Virus record (IMG/VR): IMGVR_UViG_3300045902_000238
Location: 1-20,949 of that record
DNA length: 20,949 nucleotides
From: a virus
Reading direction: 5' to 3' (one strand)
Part shown: positions 2,547 to 20,949 of the stretch, in pieces
Layout: each line of letters starts with the position of its first letter
Position numbering within the stretch: position 1 is the first letter of the stretch
Notes under the pieces: model-generated
What the model was told of the DNA's origin: nothing
The model's input: only the letters and a program-made list of their open reading frames with translations
Database searches by the model: none
Made by a program: the position numbers and the translations under genes

Positions 2547-5492
2547 ATGGAACTCAGCACCTGCTTGATCCTGAGCCAAAGAATCAGCGACGAAGATCGG
2601 GACACGCTGCTGTCACGCGTCGATCAACTGGTTGCGTCCGGAATCGCTCCCGCGGACGCGCAGAAAATGGCGGCGAACGACATCCTCGCGGAGATTGAGA
2701 GCGAGCTTCGTGATCTGGAGCGCATGTTTGCCGAGCAGCATCCGGAGCCCCCCGCACCTCCGCCGCCAGACCGCAGCCGCTTCATGTCGCGCCGAGGCGT
2801 CAGGTACACGCTGGGCGACTTCGGCAAGGCCGCGGAGCTGATCGAGGCCACGCAGGACAGGTACAACCGCTGGAAGCAGGCCATCCGGGAGATCGAGGAG
2901 CAGGGCGGCACGGTCAGCGAGGACAACGACTTCTACCGCGCAGAGGAGCGCTACTGGGGCAAGGTCGGCGCACAGCTCGATGACTTCCAAGCCGAGGTGA
3001 AGGAGTGGATCAAGGCGGTGACCAAAGACGGCCTCGACATCGCCGCTGTGGCCGAGTACGCCTACGCCGAGCACGCGCGCGACCGCAACGAGTGGATCGC
3101 CAAGATTCGCCCGTCGATGCCCGATGGTGGCTCGGGCATGACCAACGAGGAGGCCGATCTGATACTTGACGAGGCGAGGGCGGCCGGCTTGGAGGCTGTC
3201 CTCAAGCGCCACAGTGCACAGCTCCGGGCGTGGGTGCAGGGAACCCGAGACCTGATGCTGGAGGGCGGGCTGATCACGCCGGAAGAGCACGCAAGCTGGA
3301 CGCAGAACATGGCCTCCTACGTGCCCTTGCGCGGCCTGCCGCCGGGCAGCGACTTGGAGGGCATTGCTCCGGTTGGCAGCGGCACTGGGCAGGGCTTCAA
3401 CATCCGCGGCTCCGAGTCGCAGATGGCAAAGGGGCGTCGCTCACGCGCCAAGCAAATCATCGAGAACATCATCGCCGACCGGACCCGCGCGACCATCAGG
3501 GTCGGCAAGAACGAGGTGCTCAAGCACTTCCTCAAGTTCGTGCTGGACAACCCGAGCCCGAACCTCTGGGAGGTCAACGCCGTCGAGACCAAGCCGATCA
3601 CCAAAGTGGACGCGAACGGCGACAGGCAGATCGTCGAGGAAGAGCGCCTCATCACCGATCAGCGCGTCGTGACCGTCAAGGACGGCGGCGAGGAAATCCA
3701 CATCGTCGTCCGCGACGACAAGCTGCGCGAGCAGCTGCAGAACCTGAACGCGCACGAGCTTGGCAGGGTCATCGGGACGCTCCTGTTCGCCAACCGGATT
3801 CTCTCGCGCCTCTACACCTCGCTGAGCCCCGTCTTCACGGCCATCAACTTCATCCGCGATGCAATGACGGCCGGCTTCGGGGCAATCGACGAGCTGGGGT
3901 TTTTGGGAGCGGCGCGCATGTACGCCGAGTTCCCGGCCGCCACGAAGGAGTCGTTTGCGGCCGAGCTTGGCAATCGTTCGGTGGACTACAACCTGTTCCG
4001 TGCGACGGGCGGGAAAACCGGGTTCATGGACTACAAGACGCTGGATGACATCAGCAATGAGCTGGCATCCATGGTCGCGCAGGCCGAGCGGGGGATGCTT
4101 GACCCGCGCAACCTTGGTCCCGCGGCGCTGAGGCTGGTCGAGAGCGTCAACGCCGGCGTGGAGAACATCGCCCGTCTGGCCGCTTTCAAGGCTGCCAAGA
4201 AGATGGGCAAGACGGACGCAGAGGCGGCAAGCATCGCCAAGAACCTGACGGTGAACTTCAACCGTCGAGGAACGATGACGCCTGCGCTGTCGGCGTGGTT
4301 CCTGTTCTTCAACCCGGCCGTGCAGGGCACGGCGCGAATGGTGCAGGCGCTGAAAAGCCCCAAGGTGATCAGCACCCTCGGCTTCGCGATGACCGGCATC
4401 GCGGCCCTCGCGCTGCAGAACGCGGCCATGGGCGAGGACGACGATGGAATCGCGTGGTGGGACAAGATTCCGAACGAGATCAAGGAGCGGAACATCATCA
4501 TCGTCCTGCCTCCGGGGTCTGACGCTGGCGAGCTGGTTCCGGGCAGCAAGGTGGGGCGCTACCGCAAGATTCCCATGCCCTACGGGTACAACGTGTTCGC
4601 CGTCATAGCGAACAACGCAGTGGACGTGTGGCGCAACAGTCAGGATGCGGCAAAGGGGGTCACGCCCAGCAAGGCATTGACCAACGTCTTCGGCGCATTC
4701 ATGGGGTCATGGGTTCCGGTGCCTGAGATCGGCGGATCGTTCGAGAACGAGAAGTCGGCTGCCCTCGTGTTCACGCCGGATGCCCTGAACCCGGTTCTGC
4801 AGAACATGCTCAACGTCAACCCGTTCGGACGCCAGATCACGCCCAACGCTGATCGGGATGACGGGCTGCCGGACTCGACCAAGTTCACGGCGTCGCAGGC
4901 GGGGACGGTGTTTCAGAAGTCTGCGGAGCTGCTGAACAAGGCCACTGGCGGCAACGTCATCGAGAAGGGATGGATCGACCTGTCGCCCGGCTCCATCGAG
5001 AACCTCGTGCGCGGGTATCTCGGCGGTCCAGCCACGTTCACGCTGGACATCATCAACTCCATGTACGCCCGGCAGCATCTGGAGCGGCCGGAGATGGATG
5101 TCAGAAGGCTGCCTTTCATCAAGCAGTTCGTGGGCGTGATCGACGAGGAGACCGACCGCACGATGGCCTACTCCAGCATGAAAGAGGCGGAGCAGATGGT
5201 CAATCGCGCAAGAGCCGCGAAGAAGCTCGATGAGCTGCCTGAAGACGTGGCGGACTATCTGTCGGAGAACGAGCCGATCATTGCGCTTGGCCGGACGCTG
5301 CAGAGGACAAGGGCGCAGATGACGAAGCTGCGCAAGGACGAGCTGGCGGTGCTGAACGACAAAGAACTCACGGACGCCGAGAAGCTCGCCTACATGACGG
5401 AGCTGAACCGCGAGCGTCGTGCGGTGCTGCATGACTTCAACCGCGCATACGTCGAAGCGCTGCGGCTTCAGAGAAAACAGAAGGGCAGCTGA
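2547..5492 (+). CDS. LPD38-type large polyvalent-protein module, probable internal virion protein
   Basis: The 981-residue product starts at ATG after AGGAG at 2538-2542. It resembles the C-terminal part of phage and mobile-element 'large polyvalent proteins' that carry domain LPD38. Recognisable blocks are GFNIRGSESQMAKGRRSRAK (about residue 283), an inter-block helix at about 410-440 (LFANRILSRLYTSLSPVF, NFIRDAMTAGF), NLTVNFNRRGTMTPALSAWF (about 566) followed by FFNPAVQGTARM, a hydrophobic helix at about 610-630, and KIPNEIKERNIIIVLPPG with IPMPYGYNVF. The C-terminal 100 residues are charged and helical. In related phages such proteins are thought to sit inside the head and be ejected with the DNA. 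Here the module stands alone without the usual upstream enzymatic domains, just before the scaffold gene. The domain match is confident; ejection is inferred. Confidence 0.75.
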   Translation: MELSTCLILSQRISDEDRDTLLSRVDQLVASGIAPADAQKMAANDILAEIESELRDLERMFAEQHPEPPAPPPPDRSRFMSRRGVRYTLGDFGKAAELIEATQDRYNRWKQAIREIEEQGGTVSEDNDFYRAEERYWGKVGAQLDDFQAEVKEWIKAVTKDGLDIAAVAEYAYAEHARDRNEWIAKIRPSMPDGGSGMTNEEADLILDEARAAGLEAVLKRHSAQLRAWVQGTRDLMLEGGLITPEEHASWTQNMASYVPLRGLPPGSDLEGIAPVGSGTGQGFNIRGSESQMAKGRRSRAKQIIENIIADRTRATIRVGKNEVLKHFLKFVLDNPSPNLWEVNAVETKPITKVDANGDRQIVEEERLITDQRVVTVKDGGEEIHIVVRDDKLREQLQNLNAHELGRVIGTLLFANRILSRLYTSLSPVFTAINFIRDAMTAGFGAIDELGFLGAARMYAEFPAATKESFAAELGNRSVDYNLFRATGGKTGFMDYKTLDDISNELASMVAQAERGMLDPRNLGPAALRLVESVNAGVENIARLAAFKAAKKMGKTDAEAASIAKNLTVNFNRRGTMTPALSAWFLFFNPAVQGTARMVQALKSPKVISTLGFAMTGIAALALQNAAMGEDDDGIAWWDKIPNEIKERNIIIVLPPGSDAGELVPGSKVGRYRKIPMPYGYNVFAVIANNAVDVWRNSQDAAKGVTPSKALTNVFGAFMGSWVPVPEIGGSFENEKSAALVFTPDALNPVLQNMLNVNPFGRQITPNADRDDGLPDSTKFTASQAGTVFQKSAELLNKATGGNVIEKGWIDLSPGSIENLVRGYLGGPATFTLDIINSMYARQHLERPEMDVRRLPFIKQFVGVIDEETDRTMAYSSMKEAEQMVNRARAAKKLDELPEDVADYLSENEPIIALGRTLQRTRAQMTKLRKDELAVLNDKELTDAEKLAYMTELNRERRAVLHDFNRAYVEALRLQRKQKGS

Positions 5493-13062: not shown

Positions 13063-13841
13063 TCCCTGAGGTTCGTCTTTCGTCGCAGCCGGTCGTCGCG
13101 CCGTTCGCGGCTGGCGACGATTTGCAGGCGACCCGAACGCAGGACTTCGAGCGCGGTGGCGTGGCGCTCGGCGACCCCACGCAGGGCCTGAACGTCGCGA
13201 CTTGGGAGCTGCGCGTGTTTGGGCGCGATGTCCGCATCCGAAAGCTGCCGAACGGGCAGTTCTCGACGCTGTTCAGCCAGAACGGGGTCACGGACGTCCG
13301 GCTCGCGTTCGACCAGAACATGAGGCCTGTCGTGGCCTACAACATCGGCGGTCTCTGGCGCTTCCGGTGGTTCGACCCGACTCCAGCCGTCAACGCCTTC
13401 GTCGTCACGCCGTTGCCGGGCGCGAGAGACGTGTGCACCGCGCTCGACGACAAGCGGCCCGGCCAGCGCGACTTCAGCGACATCCTGATCTTCTACCTCA
13501 AAGACCCGCCGGCCCAGCAGCCGCAGCGCATCTACATGAGGGCGCAGCGCGACAGGTACGGCGTCGAGTACATGCTAGGGAACCTGCCGAGCGGCACAAC
13601 CGCGCTCTACAAGGCCGGCATGGCAGTCAACGGCCGAGTGCGCTTCGCGACCTACGGGCTGTACGCTCAAAGCCAAGCGCCTCGCCGTCCGGTTCCTCCA
13701 TACCCACCGAATGTTCCTCAGCCCAACGGCGTTGTGCTCGACTTCAGGAAAGCGGCTCAGTGGTACTTCGGCCAGACCGGGCGCGCAGAAATGCCCTTCA
13801 CATTTGAGCTGTATCGAGCGCCAGTTTCGGAGACTCTTTGA
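13059..13841 (+). CDS. Beta-propeller-like tail protein, short form
   Basis: The 260-residue product starts at ATG in an ATGA overlap, with a G-rich stretch upstream. Recognisable segments of a common phage tail protein are TQDFERGGVALGDPTQGLNV, LFSQNGVTDVRLAFDQNMRP and YNIGGLWRFRWFDP, then LDDKRPGQRDFSDILIFYL and IYMRAQRDRYGVEYMLGNLP. Family members often continue longer and are read as beta-propeller structural proteins. The proline-rich stretch at residues 210-225 may be a flexible linker before the C-terminal segment FRKAAQWYFGQTGRAEMPFT. It is probably part of the tail appendage. The propeller fold is inferred from strand spacing. Confidence 0.55.
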   Translation: MIPEVRLSSQPVVAPFAAGDDLQATRTQDFERGGVALGDPTQGLNVATWELRVFGRDVRIRKLPNGQFSTLFSQNGVTDVRLAFDQNMRPVVAYNIGGLWRFRWFDPTPAVNAFVVTPLPGARDVCTALDDKRPGQRDFSDILIFYLKDPPAQQPQRIYMRAQRDRYGVEYMLGNLPSGTTALYKAGMAVNGRVRFATYGLYAQSQAPRRPVPPYPPNVPQPNGVVLDFRKAAQWYFGQTGRAEMPFTFELYRAPVSETL

Positions 13842-14845
13842 TGGTCGCACCAATCGTCTACTCCAGCACCGACCCGAGCGCACCCGTACTCAGCGGGACA
13901 GCCGGCACGCTGATCAGCGTTCTCGACGCCTGCTTGGTCAACGGGTATGGCGCCAAGCCAGCGGCTGGCTGGACCAAGGAGTTCAGCGGGACCAACGTGG
14001 CCGCCTATCGCATGGGCACAGGCGGGAATGCGCAGCGCTACTACATGCGGGTCGAGAATACCGGAACCGTGTTCGCGCTGATCGCAGCGTTCCGCACGAT
14101 GACGGACGTGAACACGGGGACCGAAAGAACCCCAGCGCCGAGCTACTACAACAGCAGCACGGCCAACATGGGCGACAACGGCGTCGCTTTGCTTGTTTCT
14201 CATACGGCTACAACGCAGGCGCGGCCGTGGCGCATATACGCCACGCCAACCATGTTCTACATGTTTATTCAAGCCGCTTCTGTACCGGGGCAAGAATATA
14301 ACTACGGCGTTTCGCACAATCCACAGATGATGTTCTTCGGGGAGTACCAGTATTACGGCGCTGGGTACGACAAGAACGTGGTTCTCTCGGGCAGCAAATT
14401 GAGCGGCTTCTTGTCGGGCCCAGCTAGCGGCTCAAATTGCCCCGGAGGCAGGAACGGGTGGGACCGCGGCGCGTATCTGGTGGACGCGATCTTTGGTCCA
14501 TCCAGAACGCAGCCAGTGTTCTTTGCGGCACTGCGGTACGCGGCCGACACAGCAGTCAGCGGAATGCCTCCGGGCGGTGTTGGCACAACGGTGAGCGTAG
14601 TGGACGGAAAGATCAGGTTGTCGCCATTTGAGATGTTCGTCAACTTCCCAATCCCTGCTCTCATTGGTCGCATGCCGGGGCTGTACCATAATCTGTCTAA
14701 CCAAGTGTCATTGCCCGGAGCGATTTTGGAGGGCACCGGCGACTTGGCTGGGCAGAAATTCGTGAGTGAATTTGCGGCCGGGGCAACCGGGGCCGGCAAC
14801 TCAAACGACTACTTTGAGTTCTTCATCAACATCACAGACTGGTGA
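13841..14845 (+). CDS. Conserved phage tail protein, paralogue A
   Basis: The ATG at 13841 overlaps the previous stop in TGATG; a TTG three bases earlier is possible but the next paralogue also begins MVAP at an ATG. GGAG precedes it. The 334-residue product belongs to a phage tail protein family with an N-terminus of the form VLDACLVNGYGxKPAAGWTK followed by EFSG and YRMGTGG. Later landmarks are MTDVNTGTE, FYMFIQ, FGEYQYYGAGYDKNVV and the C-terminal GRMPGLYHN. No catalytic motif is seen. It shares a 71-bp block (67 identical) with the following gene, while the later halves have diverged. GC drops locally (29 of 60 at 14281-14340). The biochemical role is unknown; tail association is inferred. 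Confidence 0.65.
   Translation: MVAPIVYSSTDPSAPVLSGTAGTLISVLDACLVNGYGAKPAAGWTKEFSGTNVAAYRMGTGGNAQRYYMRVENTGTVFALIAAFRTMTDVNTGTERTPAPSYYNSSTANMGDNGVALLVSHTATTQARPWRIYATPTMFYMFIQAASVPGQEYNYGVSHNPQMMFFGEYQYYGAGYDKNVVLSGSKLSGFLSGPASGSNCPGGRNGWDRGAYLVDAIFGPSRTQPVFFAALRYAADTAVSGMPPGGVGTTVSVVDGKIRLSPFEMFVNFPIPALIGRMPGLYHNLSNQVSLPGAILEGTGDLAGQKFVSEFAAGATGAGNSNDYFEFFINITDW
13922..13992 (+). repeat. 71-bp near-identical repeat shared by the two paralogues, copy A
   Basis: This block runs from CTCGACGCCTGCTTGGTC to TTCAGCGGGAC and matches 14930-15000 at 67 of 71 positions by hand count. The four differences fall in one short stretch around codons for YGAK versus YGSK. The flanking sequence is far less alike, which suggests recent exchange or strong local constraint. 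Confidence 0.8.
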
Positions 14846-14848
14846 GAC

Positions 14849-15841
14849 ATGGTAGCCCCGACGATCTACAGGTCTGATGACGCAAGCGCTCCGGTCCTCA
14901 ACGGAACGGCAGGGGCGCTCATCACGGTCCTCGACGCCTGCTTGGTCAACGGGTACGGATCGAAGCCAGCGGCTGGCTGGACCAAGGAGTTCAGCGGGAC
15001 TCACTTGGCGGTTTATCGGATGGGCACAGGCGGGTCGGCCAGACGGATGCGGATTCGCGTTGCAGACTCGCAGGCCCAGAGGTCGAACGTCCGTGGCTTC
15101 GACAACATGACGGACGCGAACACGGGCACCGAGCCATTCCCGACGGTGGCGCAGTTCGCCGGCGACTCGAACAACGGGATGTTCGTCCACAAGTCCAACA
15201 CGGCAGATACGACCGCGAGGCCGTGGGTATGCTTGGCGACGCCGACCTTTTTCTACTTTCTCCCGCAACCGAACGTGACGTCCATCGCCTCCATGAACAC
15301 GAGCGGATGTGCGCTTGCGTTCGGCGAGTACGTGTCGTATCTCAGCGGCTTCGAGCACAACGTAGTTATCGTTGCTGGAGCCAACAGCAGTATCACCGTA
15401 GGGGCGTCATTCGGAGCGATTGACAACAGAACCTCACCAAGTACGAGCATCGGGGCGCAATTCATTTGCCGGCAACGAAACAATGTCGCTGGCGCTGTTT
15501 TGTTTGCAAAAGAGATAACGTCGCCTTGGGCCAGAAACTCGGGGATAGGGCCGATGGGAATTACCACCGGCGGGCCGCCCTTCCCTGACCCTGTTGATGG
15601 CGTGGGCCGTTGCAGCCGCGTGAGAATGTTGAGCCTTGACTCGACATGGGCGAGAATCGGCCACTTCCCCGGCTTGTGGGTTCCTCACGGGCAGGGCTAC
15701 GTCGGCAATCACTTGGACGAGATTGACGGCAGCAACACACTGAGCGGAAGGCGCTATCTGATTCTGCGGGTCAATGGCGCCGCAAATGCCTCCACCAACG
15801 AACTGGGTCAGTTGTTCTTCGACACCACGGACTTCGACTGA
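14849..15841 (+). CDS. Conserved phage tail protein, paralogue B
   Basis: The 330-residue product is a clear paralogue of the gene before it. Shared landmarks in order are MVAPxIY, LDACLVNGYGSKPAAGWTKE, YRMGTGG, MTDANTGTE, TARPW, FYFLPQ, FGEYVSYLSGFEHNVV and, near the end, GHFPGLW. The N-terminal 75 residues are most similar; the C-terminal half differs strongly. The start has GGTGAG three bases upstream, so its own ribosome binding site is weak and close, and coupling with the upstream gene is likely. The end overlaps the next start in TGATG. Divergence after a conserved N-terminus suggests a common attachment part and a different outer part. Confidence 0.65.
   Translation: MVAPTIYRSDDASAPVLNGTAGALITVLDACLVNGYGSKPAAGWTKEFSGTHLAVYRMGTGGSARRMRIRVADSQAQRSNVRGFDNMTDANTGTEPFPTVAQFAGDSNNGMFVHKSNTADTTARPWVCLATPTFFYFLPQPNVTSIASMNTSGCALAFGEYVSYLSGFEHNVVIVAGANSSITVGASFGAIDNRTSPSTSIGAQFICRQRNNVAGAVLFAKEITSPWARNSGIGPMGITTGGPPFPDPVDGVGRCSRVRMLSLDSTWARIGHFPGLWVPHGQGYVGNHLDEIDGSNTLSGRRYLILRVNGAANASTNELGQLFFDTTDFD
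14930..15000 (+). repeat. 71-bp near-identical repeat shared by the two paralogues, copy B
   Basis: This is the second copy of the block at 13922-13992, in the same orientation and the same reading frame position, 1008 bases downstream. Recombination between the copies would delete one gene and leave a hybrid protein in frame. Confidence 0.8.
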
Positions 15842-17598: not shown

Positions 17599-18131
17599 TC
17601 CGCGCAGCGCTTGTCGCCTGCGCCGTTTTCGGGGCCCTGCTGGCCGCGCAGACGTGGCGCCTGCACTTGACCAAGACGGAGCTGGCCGAGGCCCGCGCAG
17701 AGCACGCTCAGCAGCGCCAGCAGTGGGCAGAGTCCGCCCGTCAAGCGTCCGAGCAGTACCGGCAGATCGAGGCGCAGCGCGCCGCCGACCATCAGGAGAT
17801 CGTCACCCATGCCAAAGCCGACCTCGCGCGCGCTCGTCGCGACGCTGCTGCTGCCCGTGCTGCTTCTGACAGCCTGCGCGTCGCCGCAGCCAGCGCCGCT
17901 GCCGCCTGCAGTGGTGCAGCCGCCGGCGATCCCGCCGCTGCCGGTAGAAGCGCGCCAGCCTTCGGCCCCGGGCTGGTGCTCGCCGACGTGCTCGGCCGGG
18001 CTGACGAGACTGCGGGAGAGCTGGCGGCAGCTCTTGACGCCAGCCGAGCCGCCGGCCTCGCCTGCGAGCGCGCCTACGACGCGCTGAAGCCCACAGGCCG
18101 GCTCATGCCGCCTGCCTCGGCGCTCGATTGA
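17595..18131 (+). CDS. Rz: Inner-membrane spanin subunit (Rz)
   Basis: I start this at GTG 17595, in a GTGA overlap with the endolysin gene and after AGGGG; an in-frame start further upstream would add residues that copy the end of the endolysin gene. The 178-residue product has one N-terminal membrane anchor (about residues 3-18, RAALVACAVFGALLAA) and a long periplasmic coiled coil (about 24-95, rich in Glu, Gln, Arg and Ala). An Ala/Gly-rich linker and a shorter helix with two cysteines follow. This is the Rz layout. With Rz1 it bridges the periplasm and disrupts the outer membrane after the endolysin has acted. The 3' end overlaps the convergent minus-strand gene by 29 bp. Confidence 0.85.
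   Translation: MIRAALVACAVFGALLAAQTWRLHLTKTELAEARAEHAQQRQQWAESARQASEQYRQIEAQRAADHQEIVTHAKADLARARRDAAAARAASDSLRVAAASAAAACSGAAAGDPAAAGRSAPAFGPGLVLADVLGRADETAGELAAALDASRAAGLACERAYDALKPTGRLMPPASALD
17809..18087 (+). CDS. Rz1: Outer-membrane spanin lipoprotein (Rz1), embedded in Rz
   Basis: This 92-residue reading frame lies wholly inside Rz in the +1 frame. It starts at ATG with AGGAG at 17794-17798. A short basic N-terminus and hydrophobic stretch (VATLLLPVLLLTAC) end in a lipobox, L-T-A-C with Cys23, so signal peptidase II would cleave before Cys23 and lipidate it. The mature part is short and proline-rich (PQPAPLPPAVVQPPAIPPLP), the hallmark of Rz1 proteins. It would sit in the outer membrane and bind Rz through the periplasm. 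The embedded layout is a known one for phage spanins. Confidence 0.88.
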   Translation: MPKPTSRALVATLLLPVLLLTACASPQPAPLPPAVVQPPAIPPLPVEARQPSAPGWCSPTCSAGLTRLRESWRQLLTPAEPPASPASAPTTR

Positions 18132-18408
18132 GGCCGGTCCTGTCCGACCACCCCTTGAGGCCGGCCACGAGGCTGTTCAGGTCCGCATTCATGACGGCCT
18201 CGATGGCAAGCCGCGCCTCGTTGTACGGCGCCGGGTCCATGGGTTCGCGCGTCAACAGCTTCTCGGCCTCGCGCATGAGCTGCTTGTAGGCCACGACGCG
18301 AGTCGCGCCGGCGTCCACAAGCCCCGGCGGCACCCGCCTCATGGCGTTTCGCAGTGCGATCTTCGCCTCAGCGACGCGCTGGGCGAAGGTTTCTTGCTCG
18401 TTTGTCAC
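18103..18408 (-). CDS. Small helical phage protein of unknown function
   Basis: I place the start at GTG 18408 because AAGGAGA lies just upstream (about 18415-18421); the open frame extends further but into the preceding gene. The 101-residue product is helical and charged (ETFAQRVAEAKIALRNAMRR, then AYKQLMREAEKLL and EARLAIEAVMNADLNSLVAG). There is no membrane segment, cysteine motif or recognised domain. It is the last gene of the minus-strand operon and its 3' end overlaps Rz by 29 bases, tail to tail. The function is unknown. Confidence 0.6.
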   Translation of the reverse strand: MTNEQETFAQRVAEAKIALRNAMRRVPPGLVDAGATRVVAYKQLMREAEKLLTREPMDPAPYNEARLAIEAVMNADLNSLVAGLKGWSDRTGLNRAPRQAA

Positions 18409-18410
18409 GG

Positions 18411-18764
18411 CTACTCTCCTTGGCCTCTGCCGGCCCGCAGGGAGGCAACGGCATCGACCAGTATCTCGCGCAGGGCGTCCATCGTCCACTGTGCAGCCAG
18501 CTCGCCGGCTGCGCTGTTGCCAACGGGCACCCGGTAAGACTCCACGATGCGCACGAACCGCTCGCGCTCTGCGGCCACAGCCTCCGCCGCTCTGCTCATC
18601 GCCTCTTCAATCCACTCGGCAACGTCGTCGCAGTCTCCGAGCATCGTTTCGCCGTTGGCGCCGGCCTCGTAGGCGGCAAACGCCAGACCGTCAAGCGCGG
18701 CGCGCAGCGGGCCTAACCCCTCGGTCAACGCGGACCCAGCTGGGCCGGCTGATTTGTCTCGCAT
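18411..18764 (-). CDS. Small helical phage protein with AERERxVRIVE motif
   Basis: The 117-residue product starts at ATG with AGGAG a few bases upstream. It is helical, with conserved-looking parts LRAALDGLAFAAYEAGANGE and DDVAEWIEEAMSRAAEAVAA, and the motif AAERERFVRIVESYR. The same motif, also similar at DNA level, occurs in the 65-residue protein encoded further upstream in the operon (AAERERCVRIVEAYL). Such motifs recur in small phage proteins of unknown role. It stops 2 bases before the next GTG, which suggests coupling. No function is proposed. Confidence 0.6.
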   Translation of the reverse strand: MRDKSAGPAGSALTEGLGPLRAALDGLAFAAYEAGANGETMLGDCDDVAEWIEEAMSRAAEAVAAERERFVRIVESYRVPVGNSAAGELAAQWTMDALREILVDAVASLRAGRGQGE

Positions 18765-18794
18765 AGCTACTCCTGTGCGGCCACGCTGCGCCGG

Positions 18795-19202
18795 TCAGCT
18801 CAAACGTGAGACAGCACGAATACGCTCATGCGTCGTCGGCGGCGCCTTCGGAATCGGTAGCAGCTTGCCGCTAGGCGCGCGCCACTTCCACGCCATGCCG
18901 ACTGCCAGCTGATGCACGCCAATTGGGTAATCGCCGTTTTGCGCGTGCTCGCGGATGTCTTCCTTCACGAAGCCAAACAAGTAGCCGCCGCACTCGTCTT
19001 GCAGCCAGCCACGGGCAACCATGCAGTGCGCGCAGGTCTTGTGGTTGTCAATCTTGCCTTCCCACACAAAGCGGTCAACGTGGTAGCGCTCGCCGGGTTC
19101 GATGACCCGGCCGCACTCGCGGCACTTTTGGGCCTTCCTCGCCACGGGCTCGGCCGTCGAGAGCATCGTCACCGCCCCGTCTCCGTCGTAAAACATGCAC
19201 AT
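18795..19202 (-). CDS. Zinc-binding-looking phage protein
   Basis: I choose ATG 19202, giving 135 residues, because GAGGAG (19213-19218) lies 10 bases upstream; a longer open frame adds an Arg-rich stretch that overlaps the previous gene. Two CxxC pairs are spaced as in a zinc ribbon or treble clef: C27-x2-C30 in KCRECGRVIEPGERYHVDRF and C57-x2-C60 in HKTCAHCMVARG. This suggests a metal site that could hold a fold or bind nucleic acid. The C-terminal half (YLFGFVKEDIREHAQNGDYP, then HQLAVGMAWKWRAPSGKL) is not recognised. It is a cytoplasmic accessory protein by context. Confidence 0.65.
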   Translation of the reverse strand: MCMFYDGDGAVTMLSTAEPVARKAQKCRECGRVIEPGERYHVDRFVWEGKIDNHKTCAHCMVARGWLQDECGGYLFGFVKEDIREHAQNGDYPIGVHQLAVGMAWKWRAPSGKLLPIPKAPPTTHERIRAVSRLS

Positions 19203-19207
19203 GCTGT

Positions 19208-19405
19208 CTAACTCCTCAAGTACGCTTCGACGATCCGAACGCATCGCTCGCGCTCTGCGGCCACGCACGCGGCGGCGTAGGCGCGCAGGTCCTCGGCGGT
19301 CCAGACCGGCACCTGCTCGGTGCCGCGCGTCACCACGTCGAAGCGCTCGGGCAGTGGCAGAAGACCATCACGGTATGGCAACGGTGCGCCGTCGATCACG
19401 TCCAT
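19208..19405 (-). CDS. Short phage protein with AERERxVRIVE motif
   Basis: The 65-residue product starts at ATG 19405, 10 bases inside the end of the RyR gene. The upstream sequence GAGGT is a weak ribosome binding site, so coupling with the RyR gene is likely. It has a loop-rich N-terminus (DVIDGAPLPYRDGLLPLPER), and a C-terminal helix (WTAEDLRAYAAACVAAERER then CVRIVEAYLRS). The C-terminal helix is shared with the product of 18411-18764. No function is recognised. Confidence 0.5.
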   Translation of the reverse strand: MDVIDGAPLPYRDGLLPLPERFDVVTRGTEQVPVWTAEDLRAYAAACVAAERERCVRIVEAYLRS

Positions 19406-19929
19406 ACCTCGCTGCCGCCGCCATAACCATCCCCCGCCCGCTCAAGCACCCTGCGGGCCCAGCTCTGTGGCCCATCGTCATGCCACCATAGCCCCTCCGA
19501 CTCAAGCGCCTCTTGCATGCGCTCACATTGGCGCAGCAGCGAACGCAGTGCGTTGACGGTGTCACGCGCCTCGTAGCTGCGAACCACGTCACCGGCCAGC
19601 GAATGCACCACGGCGCGGAAGATGTAGTCCTTCGCCTGCTGCTCCTGCGGCAGCTGATCAAACGGCACCATGCAGGGATGCTGCTTCAGCTCGGGCTTCT
19701 TCTCGGGGCCGTAAGTCCAGCCTTCTGCCGCCTTCTGCGCCATCCAACTTTCGTGGCTGGCCTGCAGGCCGGCATCGGGGTTATCGGTGTGCAGCTTCAC
19801 GCCCATCATGGCCGCTTCGCGCTGCCACTGCGGCGCGTCATCCCATGCGGGCTGGCTGTTGTCGCCCAGCGCTTGGCAGTAAGCGCGGTTGACTTCGTGT
19901 GCCACGCGGGCGATTTCTTCAGGGTCCAT
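19396..19929 (-). CDS. RyR-domain protein
   Basis: The 177-residue product has a RyR domain, named after the ryanodine receptor repeat, at about residues 5-110. Landmarks are IARVAHEVNRAYCQALGDNS, WDDAPQWQREAAMMGVKLH, SHESWMAQKAAEGWTYGPEK, and KQHPCMVPFDQLPQEQQAKD followed by YIFRAVVHSL. Prokaryotic and phage RyR domains are stand-alone versions whose ligand is not established; a nucleotide-like ligand has been suggested, but I cannot confirm it. Residues 115-177 form a helical tail (LRSLLRQCERMQEALESEGL) of unknown role. The start has no good Shine-Dalgarno and overlaps the upstream gene by 11 bases, so coupling is likely. The domain call is firm. Confidence 0.85.
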   Translation of the reverse strand: MDPEEIARVAHEVNRAYCQALGDNSQPAWDDAPQWQREAAMMGVKLHTDNPDAGLQASHESWMAQKAAEGWTYGPEKKPELKQHPCMVPFDQLPQEQQAKDYIFRAVVHSLAGDVVRSYEARDTVNALRSLLRQCERMQEALESEGLWWHDDGPQSWARRVLERAGDGYGGGSEVWT

Positions 19930-20206
19930 CGGTAGCAGTTCTGTTGTGACGGTTCATGGCTTGGTCCACCGCTTCGCGCAGCGTGCGGCCGCTGGTAGGC
20001 CAGCCGGTCAGCGTGTCATGCCACACCTGCACAAGGTTATCGGGGTCAGCGACCATATCCACGAACACGGCTTTCTCCGCCAGCCACCGGAACCGCCGTG
20101 CGTCGTCAATGCAGTCGCGCAGGAATTGCGCGCGCTCGCCGTGGCCATCCTCCGCCAGACGGCGCGCCAGCTGCATCATGTCGTGGTACTGTGAGTCGTC
20201 GATCAC
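19919..20206 (-). CDS. Small phage protein of unknown function
   Basis: I choose GTG 20206, in a GTGA overlap with the MazG-like gene and after AAGGAG (about 20215-20220), giving 95 residues. The longer open frame would start inside the MazG-like gene. The product is helical in the middle (YHDMMQLARRLAEDGHGERA, FLRDCIDDARRFRWLAEKAV), and ends with TLREAVDQAMNRHNR. Similar segments (DDARRFRWL) occur in small phage proteins of unknown role. Nothing suggests a membrane location. It overlaps the RyR gene by 11 bases. No function is proposed. Confidence 0.65.
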   Translation of the reverse strand: MIDDSQYHDMMQLARRLAEDGHGERAQFLRDCIDDARRFRWLAEKAVFVDMVADPDNLVQVWHDTLTGWPTSGRTLREAVDQAMNRHNRTATDGP

Positions 20207-20517
20207 CCGGCGCGCTCCTTCACGAAGACCCCGTTGGGCATGAGGGTGCCCTTGCGGTGCTTGATGTCCTCGTAGGAGCCGGCAAGGCACTCCACGAGGT
20301 CGATGTCCTGAAGCGCGCAGTAGTTGATGAGGCAGACCATCACGTCGCCGACGGCATCCTTGATGCCGGGCATGTTGCCTTTGACGGTGGCGCTAGCCAG
20401 CTCGCCCATCTCCTCGAATGCCTTGAGGAGCTGGGCTTGCGGCGTGCTGTTGGGGATGATCCGGCGAGCTTCCGCCCACCGGATGACATCCAGCTCCAGC
20501 TCGCGGTAGCTGGGCAT
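20203..20517 (-). CDS. MazG-like nucleotide pyrophosphohydrolase
   Basis: The 104-residue product matches the all-alpha NTP pyrophosphohydrolase (MazG-like) fold. The metal-binding pattern is visible as EEMGEL at residues 35-40 (helix LLKAFEEMGELASATVKG) and KDAVGDVMVCLINY at about 53-66, with acidic residues Glu35, Glu36, Glu39, Asp54 and Asp58. Such enzymes cut nucleoside triphosphates to monophosphates and pyrophosphate, and in phages are thought to adjust nucleotide or alarmone pools. The C-terminal GSYEDIKHRKGTLMPNGVFV is a typical end for phage copies. The start has no strong Shine-Dalgarno; it follows the upstream stop by 1 base. It ends in a GTGA overlap with the next gene. Confidence 0.8.
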   Translation of the reverse strand: MPSYRELELDVIRWAEARRIIPNSTPQAQLLKAFEEMGELASATVKGNMPGIKDAVGDVMVCLINYCALQDIDLVECLAGSYEDIKHRKGTLMPNGVFVKERAG

Positions 20518-20518
20518 C

Positions 20519-20800
20519 TCACGCCACCCCGGCAGCGGAGAGCTTGGCCTCCAGCTCCGCGATGCGCTGCTTCATCTCGGCCACGGTGGCGGCCTTGACC
20601 GGCGCGATGCCGAACGCCTCACGGTACGCCTTGATCGTTGACGGGCCGACCTTGAGCCCGAACCGCTGGGACACGATCTTCGCGAACCCGTTGTCGGTCG
20701 CGCCGGTCTTGACGTACTCTTCCTTCACGCACGTCATCACGTCGTAGCGCTGGCGCATGGTCATCTTGTTGCGCTTCTTCTTCACTTTTGCTTCGTTCAT
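20519..20800 (-). CDS. Small basic predicted DNA-binding protein
   Basis: I choose ATG 20800, giving 93 residues, because AGAGGA lies upstream and the ATG overlaps the preceding stop in ATGA. The N-terminus is very basic (NEAKVKKKRNKMTMRQRYDV). A helix-turn-helix-like segment follows (GFAKIVSQRFGLKVGPSTIK, then AYREAFGI), and a C-terminal coiled coil (AATVAEMKQRIAELEAKLSA) may allow dimerisation. The layout suggests a small DNA-binding regulator or accessory protein. The HTH is inferred from helix spacing and the Gly turn. Confidence 0.6.
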   Translation of the reverse strand: MNEAKVKKKRNKMTMRQRYDVMTCVKEEYVKTGATDNGFAKIVSQRFGLKVGPSTIKAYREAFGIAPVKAATVAEMKQRIAELEAKLSAAGVA

Positions 20801-20949
20801 GGGTGTTCCTCTTCGGTTGACAGGTGGTGCCGGTCTTTCCCGGCTGTCATGCGCACCCCAGTTGCACGGCGCAGCGTGCTGCGGAGACTGGCTGCCTCTA
20901 TGAGGCGCGGCGTCGGCAGCCAAACCAGCGGCTCGCAGACTGGGCCACT
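20797..20949 (-). CDS. Partial upstream gene, C-terminal 50 residues
   Basis: The minus-strand frame is open from the window edge to a TGA at 20799-20797, which overlaps the next ATG in ATGA. The 50 residues visible include PLVWLPTPRLIEAASLRSTL and MTAGKDRHHLSTEEEHP. The ATGA junction and the ribosome binding site of the next gene inside it match the pattern of the other genes of this operon. The family is not recognised, and the fragment is too short to propose a function. It could also be a chance open frame, which is common at this GC content. Confidence 0.45.
   Translation of the reverse strand, partial: SGPVCEPLVWLPTPRLIEAASLRSTLRRATGVRMTAGKDRHHLSTEEEHP

Follow-up and report, generated by a model that had tools for sequence, protein, structure and literature searches.

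A phage RyR-domain protein as a probable sponge-type member of the RyDEP counter-defence family, encoded beside a MazG-like enzyme of probably separate function

Main finding

By sequence and predicted fold, P0001, an RyR-domain protein encoded at the right end of a virus record, is a member of RyDEP, a phage RyR-domain (PF02026) family that counters the Thoeris defence (PMC13232231, preprint of 29 May 2026, available text). We favour as probable the reading that P0001 is a sponge-type RyDEP directed against the 2'/3'cADPR of Thoeris, and that the MazG-like protein encoded next to it is separate and acts on nucleotide pools.

The record and its gene row

The window, i.e. the whole stretch of DNA that was analysed, is the complete virus record IMGVR_UViG_3300045902_000238 (20,949 bases), which is possibly a fragment. 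Its plus strand carries head and tail genes, including a major head protein (PHROG 1357), an SU10 adaptor and an LPD38 protein, as well as an ORF that partially matches endolysin PHROG 669 (E = 3.1e-10). At the right end, the minus strand holds small ORFs in a tightly packed row, listed here in the direction of reading.

20519-20800, minus strand: P0004, 93 aa, basic; upstream of MazG in the row
20203-20517, minus strand: P0003, MazG-like all-alpha NTP pyrophosphohydrolase (putative), 104 aa; PF03819, PHROG 1992/715
19919-20206, minus strand: P0002, small ORF, 96 aa from a GTG at 20206; overlaps both neighbours
19396-19929, minus strand: P0001, RyR-domain protein, 177 aa; PF02026, PHROG 5154, predicted Repeat12 fold
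19399-19593, minus strand: C-terminal extension of P0001, residues 113-177 (65 residues), predicted two-helix hairpin
19208-19405, minus strand: 65-aa ORF, overlapping the RyR end; downstream of RyR
18795-19202, minus strand: P0005, 135 aa, two CxxC pairs; further down the row

P0002 shares 4 bases (GTGA) with the end of the MazG frame and 11 bases with the beginning of the RyR frame, and a single base separates the end of P0004 from the start of MazG. The sequence-only reading had described an RyR domain next to a MazG-like gene, with a small gene overlapping both, and the PF02026 and PHROG matches together with these overlaps confirm that arrangement. The operon is called from gene anatomy only. 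A search of 18000-20949 gave no sigma-70-like site. Because the record stops at 20949, the 5' part of the row lies outside the view.

The other members of the row gave few family matches. For P0002, no Pfam match was obtained and PHROG 13871 matched only weakly (E = 0.03). Nothing exceeded the cut-offs of Pfam, PHROG or NCBIfam for P0004, which shows a sub-threshold match to a sigma-54 DNA-binding domain and is perhaps a small DNA-binding protein. The 65-aa ORF had no family match in Pfam or PHROG. P0005 matched PHROG 7314, of unknown function (E = 2e-14), and its Pfam zinc-ribbon matches were all below cut-off. A search of seven ORFs against the PADLOC defence families returned no match, and by megablast no phage record resembled the window in DNA sequence.

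Several plus-strand genes have features of their own. ORF 2-847, open at the 5' end of the record, contains repeats of about 24 residues of the type LNTAAGTNFSSMFNGCSSLRTIPL, which we take to resemble the BspA/DUF285 type. It adjoins ORF 852-1469, which carries a CBM_5_12 carbohydrate-binding module (PF02839, E = 6.1e-10) and internal repeats. The LPD38 protein (ORF 2547-5492; 981 aa; PF18857, E = 3.2e-32) has tblastn relatives in 140 phage records, all below 60% identity, most of them from phages of Vibrio (103), with phages of Escherichia (10) and Burkholderia (8) and Stx phages (6) also present. Finally, ORFs 13838-14845 and 14849-15841 are paralogues with 37% identity, nearly identical over their first 60 residues. 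Neither has a Pfam match; they are perhaps duplicated tail or receptor-binding proteins.

Family and predicted fold of the RyR protein

P0001 matches PF02026 over residues 57-101 (E = 2.8e-11; 43.9 bits for a cut-off of 27.4), and a PF02026 profile search of the window's own record also scored above cut-off. Four PHROGs of unknown function match the protein, the best being PHROG 5154 (E = 1.1e-47); NCBIfam gave no match. The best 60 of its 66 sequence relatives in the PDB consist of ryanodine receptors, one RyR protein from Bacteroides, and the entry for gp78 of Mycobacterium phage DyoEdafos, 35TM.

The structure prediction, built on 33 aligned sequences, reached a mean pLDDT of 84.9. The best 18 VIA-align matches of this model are all RyR domains, led by human RyR3 Repeat12 (9l91_A; Z 9.5, rmsd 2.6, 113 residues), with Bacteroides 3nrt_A (Z 9.3, rmsd 3.7, 75 residues) also among the fold matches; since Z values below about 13 are weak for helical bundles, the weight was placed on the agreement between sequence and fold. 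Only the C-terminal helices were matched in rows 19 and 20. With Foldseek, the best match was 6uhi (E = 3.9e-4). Structural identity to P0001 amounts to 27-29% for the Bacteroides RyR-like protein and 16% for RyR3. The fold is thus common to P0001, the Bacteroides protein and the animal receptor, although animal RyR domains, unlike P0001, are tandem repeats within a calcium channel.

P0001 differs from the sponge-type RyDEPs in its 65-residue C-terminal helical extension. Helices are predicted at residues 114-144 and 154-169, with block pLDDT values of 70-86 up to residue 160, 66 at 161-170 and below 50 at 169-176. The extension is unaligned in the close relatives compared, and among the 60 tblastn matches listed, only Pseudomonas phage Epa33-like records reach residue 153. 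It could alter the activity of the protein.

Ligand residues and mode of action

The available text of PMC13232231 reports that phage RyR relatives bind cADPR and have anti-Thoeris activity. Six of the eight phage PF02026 homologues tested bind 2'/3'cADPR and none of the eight cleaves it; the homologues of a Ruegeria phage (H4) and a Pectobacterium phage (H7) are nanomolar binders that rescue phages from Thoeris. In contrast, gp78 (PDB 35TM) is a cADPR glycosidase that converts 2'/3'cADPR to ADPR, and Gln54 is among the gp78 residues mutated by the authors. The function that the sequence-only reading had expected to be undescribed is, for the RyR family, now described there. In literature searches, RyDEP was otherwise found only in one unrelated physics paper, and, as far as the search listings show, no other paper deals with what phage RyR proteins do.

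To place P0001 within this family, 105 domain sequences were aligned: gp78 (from MN234187), the window protein and 103 others, from 66 IMG/VR contigs, 16 further named phages and 21 genome contigs. Residues H75, W78, H100 and D117 of gp78 correspond to H59, W62, H84 and D101 of P0001. These four columns are invariant in all 105 rows, an invariance that is partly built in, as the rows were gathered by similarity. The codons, computed from the ORF start, are as follows.

19753-19755, minus strand: H59
19744-19746, minus strand: W62
19678-19680, minus strand: H84
19627-19629, minus strand: D101
19810-19812, minus strand: Ala40, at the Gln54 position of gp78

P0001 shares with gp78 the domain and the four ligand or catalytic residues, and shares with the sponge-type H4 and H7 the PF02026 domain and the same His/Trp/His/Asp set. 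The column of Gln54 distinguishes gp78 from the rest: it reads A in 96 rows, V in 3, I in 2, S, T and L in one each, and Q in gp78 alone. A Gly column three residues further along, conserved in 100 of 105 rows, anchors the alignment at this point. At the Gln54 position, the homologues that we fetched from a Ruegeria phage (L154) and a Pectobacterium phage (L155), linked to H4 and H7 by genus, carry Ile and Ala, respectively. They share 52% and 54% domain identity with P0001, which is only 30% identical to gp78. A tree built from 53 of these 105 sequences places the window protein in a cluster with four IMG/VR relatives (95/87); gp78 forms a very long branch whose placement is unsure.

These comparisons bear on the possibility that P0001 is itself a glycosidase, cleaving 2'/3'cADPR to ADPR as gp78 does. 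Such a reading draws on the catalytic His/Asp pair, which P0001 retains as H59 and D101. However, the pair is kept equally in L154 and L155, although none of the eight homologues tested cleaves the ligand (PMC13232231, available text), so that the pair by itself cannot separate cleavers from sponges. The Ala in place of Gln54 and the low identity to gp78 also speak against cleavage. Moreover, the gp78 gene sits between two NARP1 genes, whereas the P0001 gene adjoins MazG: no match to Namat (PF04095), the sole NARP1 partner sought, was found in the 47 contigs of relatives searched (the DyoEdafos control was positive), nor in a Pfam scan of the eight window ORFs of the gene block. We consider a glycosidase activity quite unlikely. 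P0001 would rather be a sponge, given its Ala at the Gln54 position, its greater closeness to L154 and L155, and the lack of cleavage by any of the eight homologues in the available text of the preprint. Gln54 may then be the feature that tells the enzyme from the sponge.

A ligand other than 2'/3'cADPR is unlikely, though less so. P0001 might bind a different adenine-containing nucleotide (ADPR, a cyclic oligonucleotide or a further isomer of cADPR) from another defence system. Indeed, binding of 2'/3'cADPR is not universal in the family, since two of the eight tested homologues are non-binders (PMC13232231, available text), and PDB structures among our fold matches show the Repeat12 domain of RyR3 with ATP-like ligands. 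Against this, P0001 is nearer to the Ruegeria and Pectobacterium phage homologues than to gp78, and the tested sponges come from those genera.

The position of RyR genes in other phages raises the possibility that the protein is associated with the virion or its assembly and has no role in defence. In Pseudomonas phage Epa33 (L157, 4001-4873), Cellulophaga phage phi40:1 (L159, 3863-4324) and Stenotrophomonas phage Moby (L165, 3986-4336), the genes around RyR are annotated as structural, which is not the setting of an early counter-defence gene. However, the residues of the nucleotide pocket are those found invariant in the alignment, and the RyR gene of the window stands among small accessory ORFs on the strand opposite to the structural genes. 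We hold this explanation to be very unlikely.

According to the sponge reading, which we prefer, a host TIR protein (Thoeris) would make 2'/3' cyclic ADP-ribose during infection, and P0001 would bind it in its Repeat12 pocket and hold it without cleaving it. With the signal held in this way, the Thoeris effector would stay off. The RyR gene is placed in a row of small accessory genes by the lysis end of the fragment, and the neighbouring MazG would be a separate (d)NTP pyrophosphohydrolase acting on nucleotide pools.

The MazG-like protein

P0003 scores just above the cut-off of PF03819 (22.7 bits for 22.0) and matches MazG-like pyrophosphatase PHROGs more clearly (PHROG 1992, E = 1.4e-31; PHROG 715, E = 3.1e-26). 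Its predicted model (pLDDT 92.9) superposes on MazG 1vmg (Z 11.1, rmsd 1.8, 82 residues) and on 7ody_C, the MazZ of cyanophage S-2L (Z 10.7, rmsd 3.0, 98 residues), with phosphoribosyl-ATP and dCTP pyrophosphatases further down the list of fold matches. MazZ and the MazG/dCTPP-type enzymes thus have a fold in common with P0003 over nearly the whole chain, but only about 20% identity.

The metal-binding motif of MazG-type enzymes is EExxE...ExxD. In P0003, EExxE is present (E35, E36, E39), whereas the usual ExxD reads AxxD, with D54 just before it. This feature extends to its close family, where all 82 rows (window included) have A, G or S at the first position of ExxD and keep the acidic residues E36, E39, D54 and D58. 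The simplest reading, based on sequence and model, is that P0003 is an ordinary phage (d)NTP pyrophosphohydrolase with putative substrates of this class. The suggestion that the system might be directed against an alarmone has lost ground, as a purified cyanophage MazG neither binds nor hydrolyses (p)ppGpp and prefers dGTP and dCTP, according to the available text of PMC6850273.

Recurrence of the RyR-MazG pairing

The sequence-only reading had also proposed that the two proteins form one phage system acting on nucleotide signals. We examined this through the neighbourhoods of relatives of both genes. All counts come from tblastn and HMM matches, because the greedy ORF picker took antisense ORFs and missed the MazG of the window. 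When the flanks of 104 other RyR loci were scanned with HMMs, only L030 and L009 showed a MazG, and no RyR was found in the flanks of the best 80 MazG loci; many of these contigs are fragments, flanks of less than 6 kb are frequent, and the loci were chosen as the nearest to the RyR and MazG of the window. In L030, the order is RyR, a 57-aa ORF, then MazG, i.e. reversed with respect to the window and with a different middle ORF. In L009, MazG lies 3 kb from RyR (E = 4.4e-4). In addition, at L030 (1737-2243, minus strand), the RyR/MazG pair adjoins an ORF on the other strand that is lysozyme-like by eye.

Whole contigs were searched as well. Among 47 of the 66 IMG/VR RyR contigs, the only match was that of L009 (PHROG 715 and PF03819), while the window itself matched PHROG 715 in the whole-record search. 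Among 17 named RyR phages, PF03819 matched once, in Ruegeria V21, and PHROG 715 once, in pf16, at distances from RyR of about 14 kb and about 48 kb, respectively. By tblastn, 1554 of 50,697 phage records (mean length about 45 kb) contain a P0003-like MazG. For the roughly 1,031 kb of DNA examined around the 104 RyR loci, rough arithmetic gives about 0.7 MazG expected by chance against 2 seen, one of them at a distance of one ORF; the two seen come from an HMM search, whose sensitivity exceeds that of the tblastn search that gave the 1554.

The neighbours shared by RyR relatives at 66 viral loci look like recombination and replication genes, presumably YqaJ-like, SSB-like and DNA-polymerase-like (by eye). 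RyR is the sole window ORF to fall in a family with ORFs of these relatives, in a clustering that omitted the MazG and middle ORFs of the window and whose RyR family comprises only 36 loci (window included). Furthermore, P0002 has a single relative among viral contigs (L153, 80% identical), and neither RyR nor MazG was detected in the 12.3 kb of that contig examined. Among the papers searched, none combines an RyR domain with MazG, or anti-Thoeris with MazG.

On the strength of these counts, which show no recurrence in the loci examined, the joint system was set aside. In that system, the two proteins would serve a single signalling or alarmone pathway, MazG by destroying its nucleotides and RyR by binding them. 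The reading frames do overlap via P0002, and L030 also has RyR and MazG one ORF apart, but the scarcity of the pairing around both genes, the reversed order and different middle ORF of L030, the surroundings of the P0002 relative and the inactivity of the cyanophage MazG on (p)ppGpp (PMC6850273, available text) make it highly improbable. There is an even fainter chance that MazG, P0002 and RyR form a translationally coupled counter-defence cassette. The RyR protein, built up by its hairpin into a higher oligomer, would then capture cADPR, and MazG would break some other nucleotide of that pathway that carries a pyrophosphate, the capture and removal that are joined in gp78 being split over two proteins. 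The analysis thus retained one half of the original proposal: the counter-defence role of the RyR protein is favoured by the available text of PMC13232231, the residues and the fold, whereas no conserved RyR-MazG neighbourhood emerged from the loci examined. The lack of a recurring neighbourhood was one of two outcomes, together with a lack of ligand binding, that had been named as speaking against the proposal. RyR and MazG probably have a transcript in common, not a pathway.

Significance

Under the sponge reading, we infer that P0001 binds cADPR without cleaving it and that the neighbouring MazG has its own substrate. An anonymous phage gene is now linked to a counter-defence family first described in 2026. 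Gln54, absent from the 104 other rows of the alignment, may mark rare cleavers, and most phage RyR proteins would be sponges. If this rule is true, sequence alone would tell the cleaving from the sponge mode.
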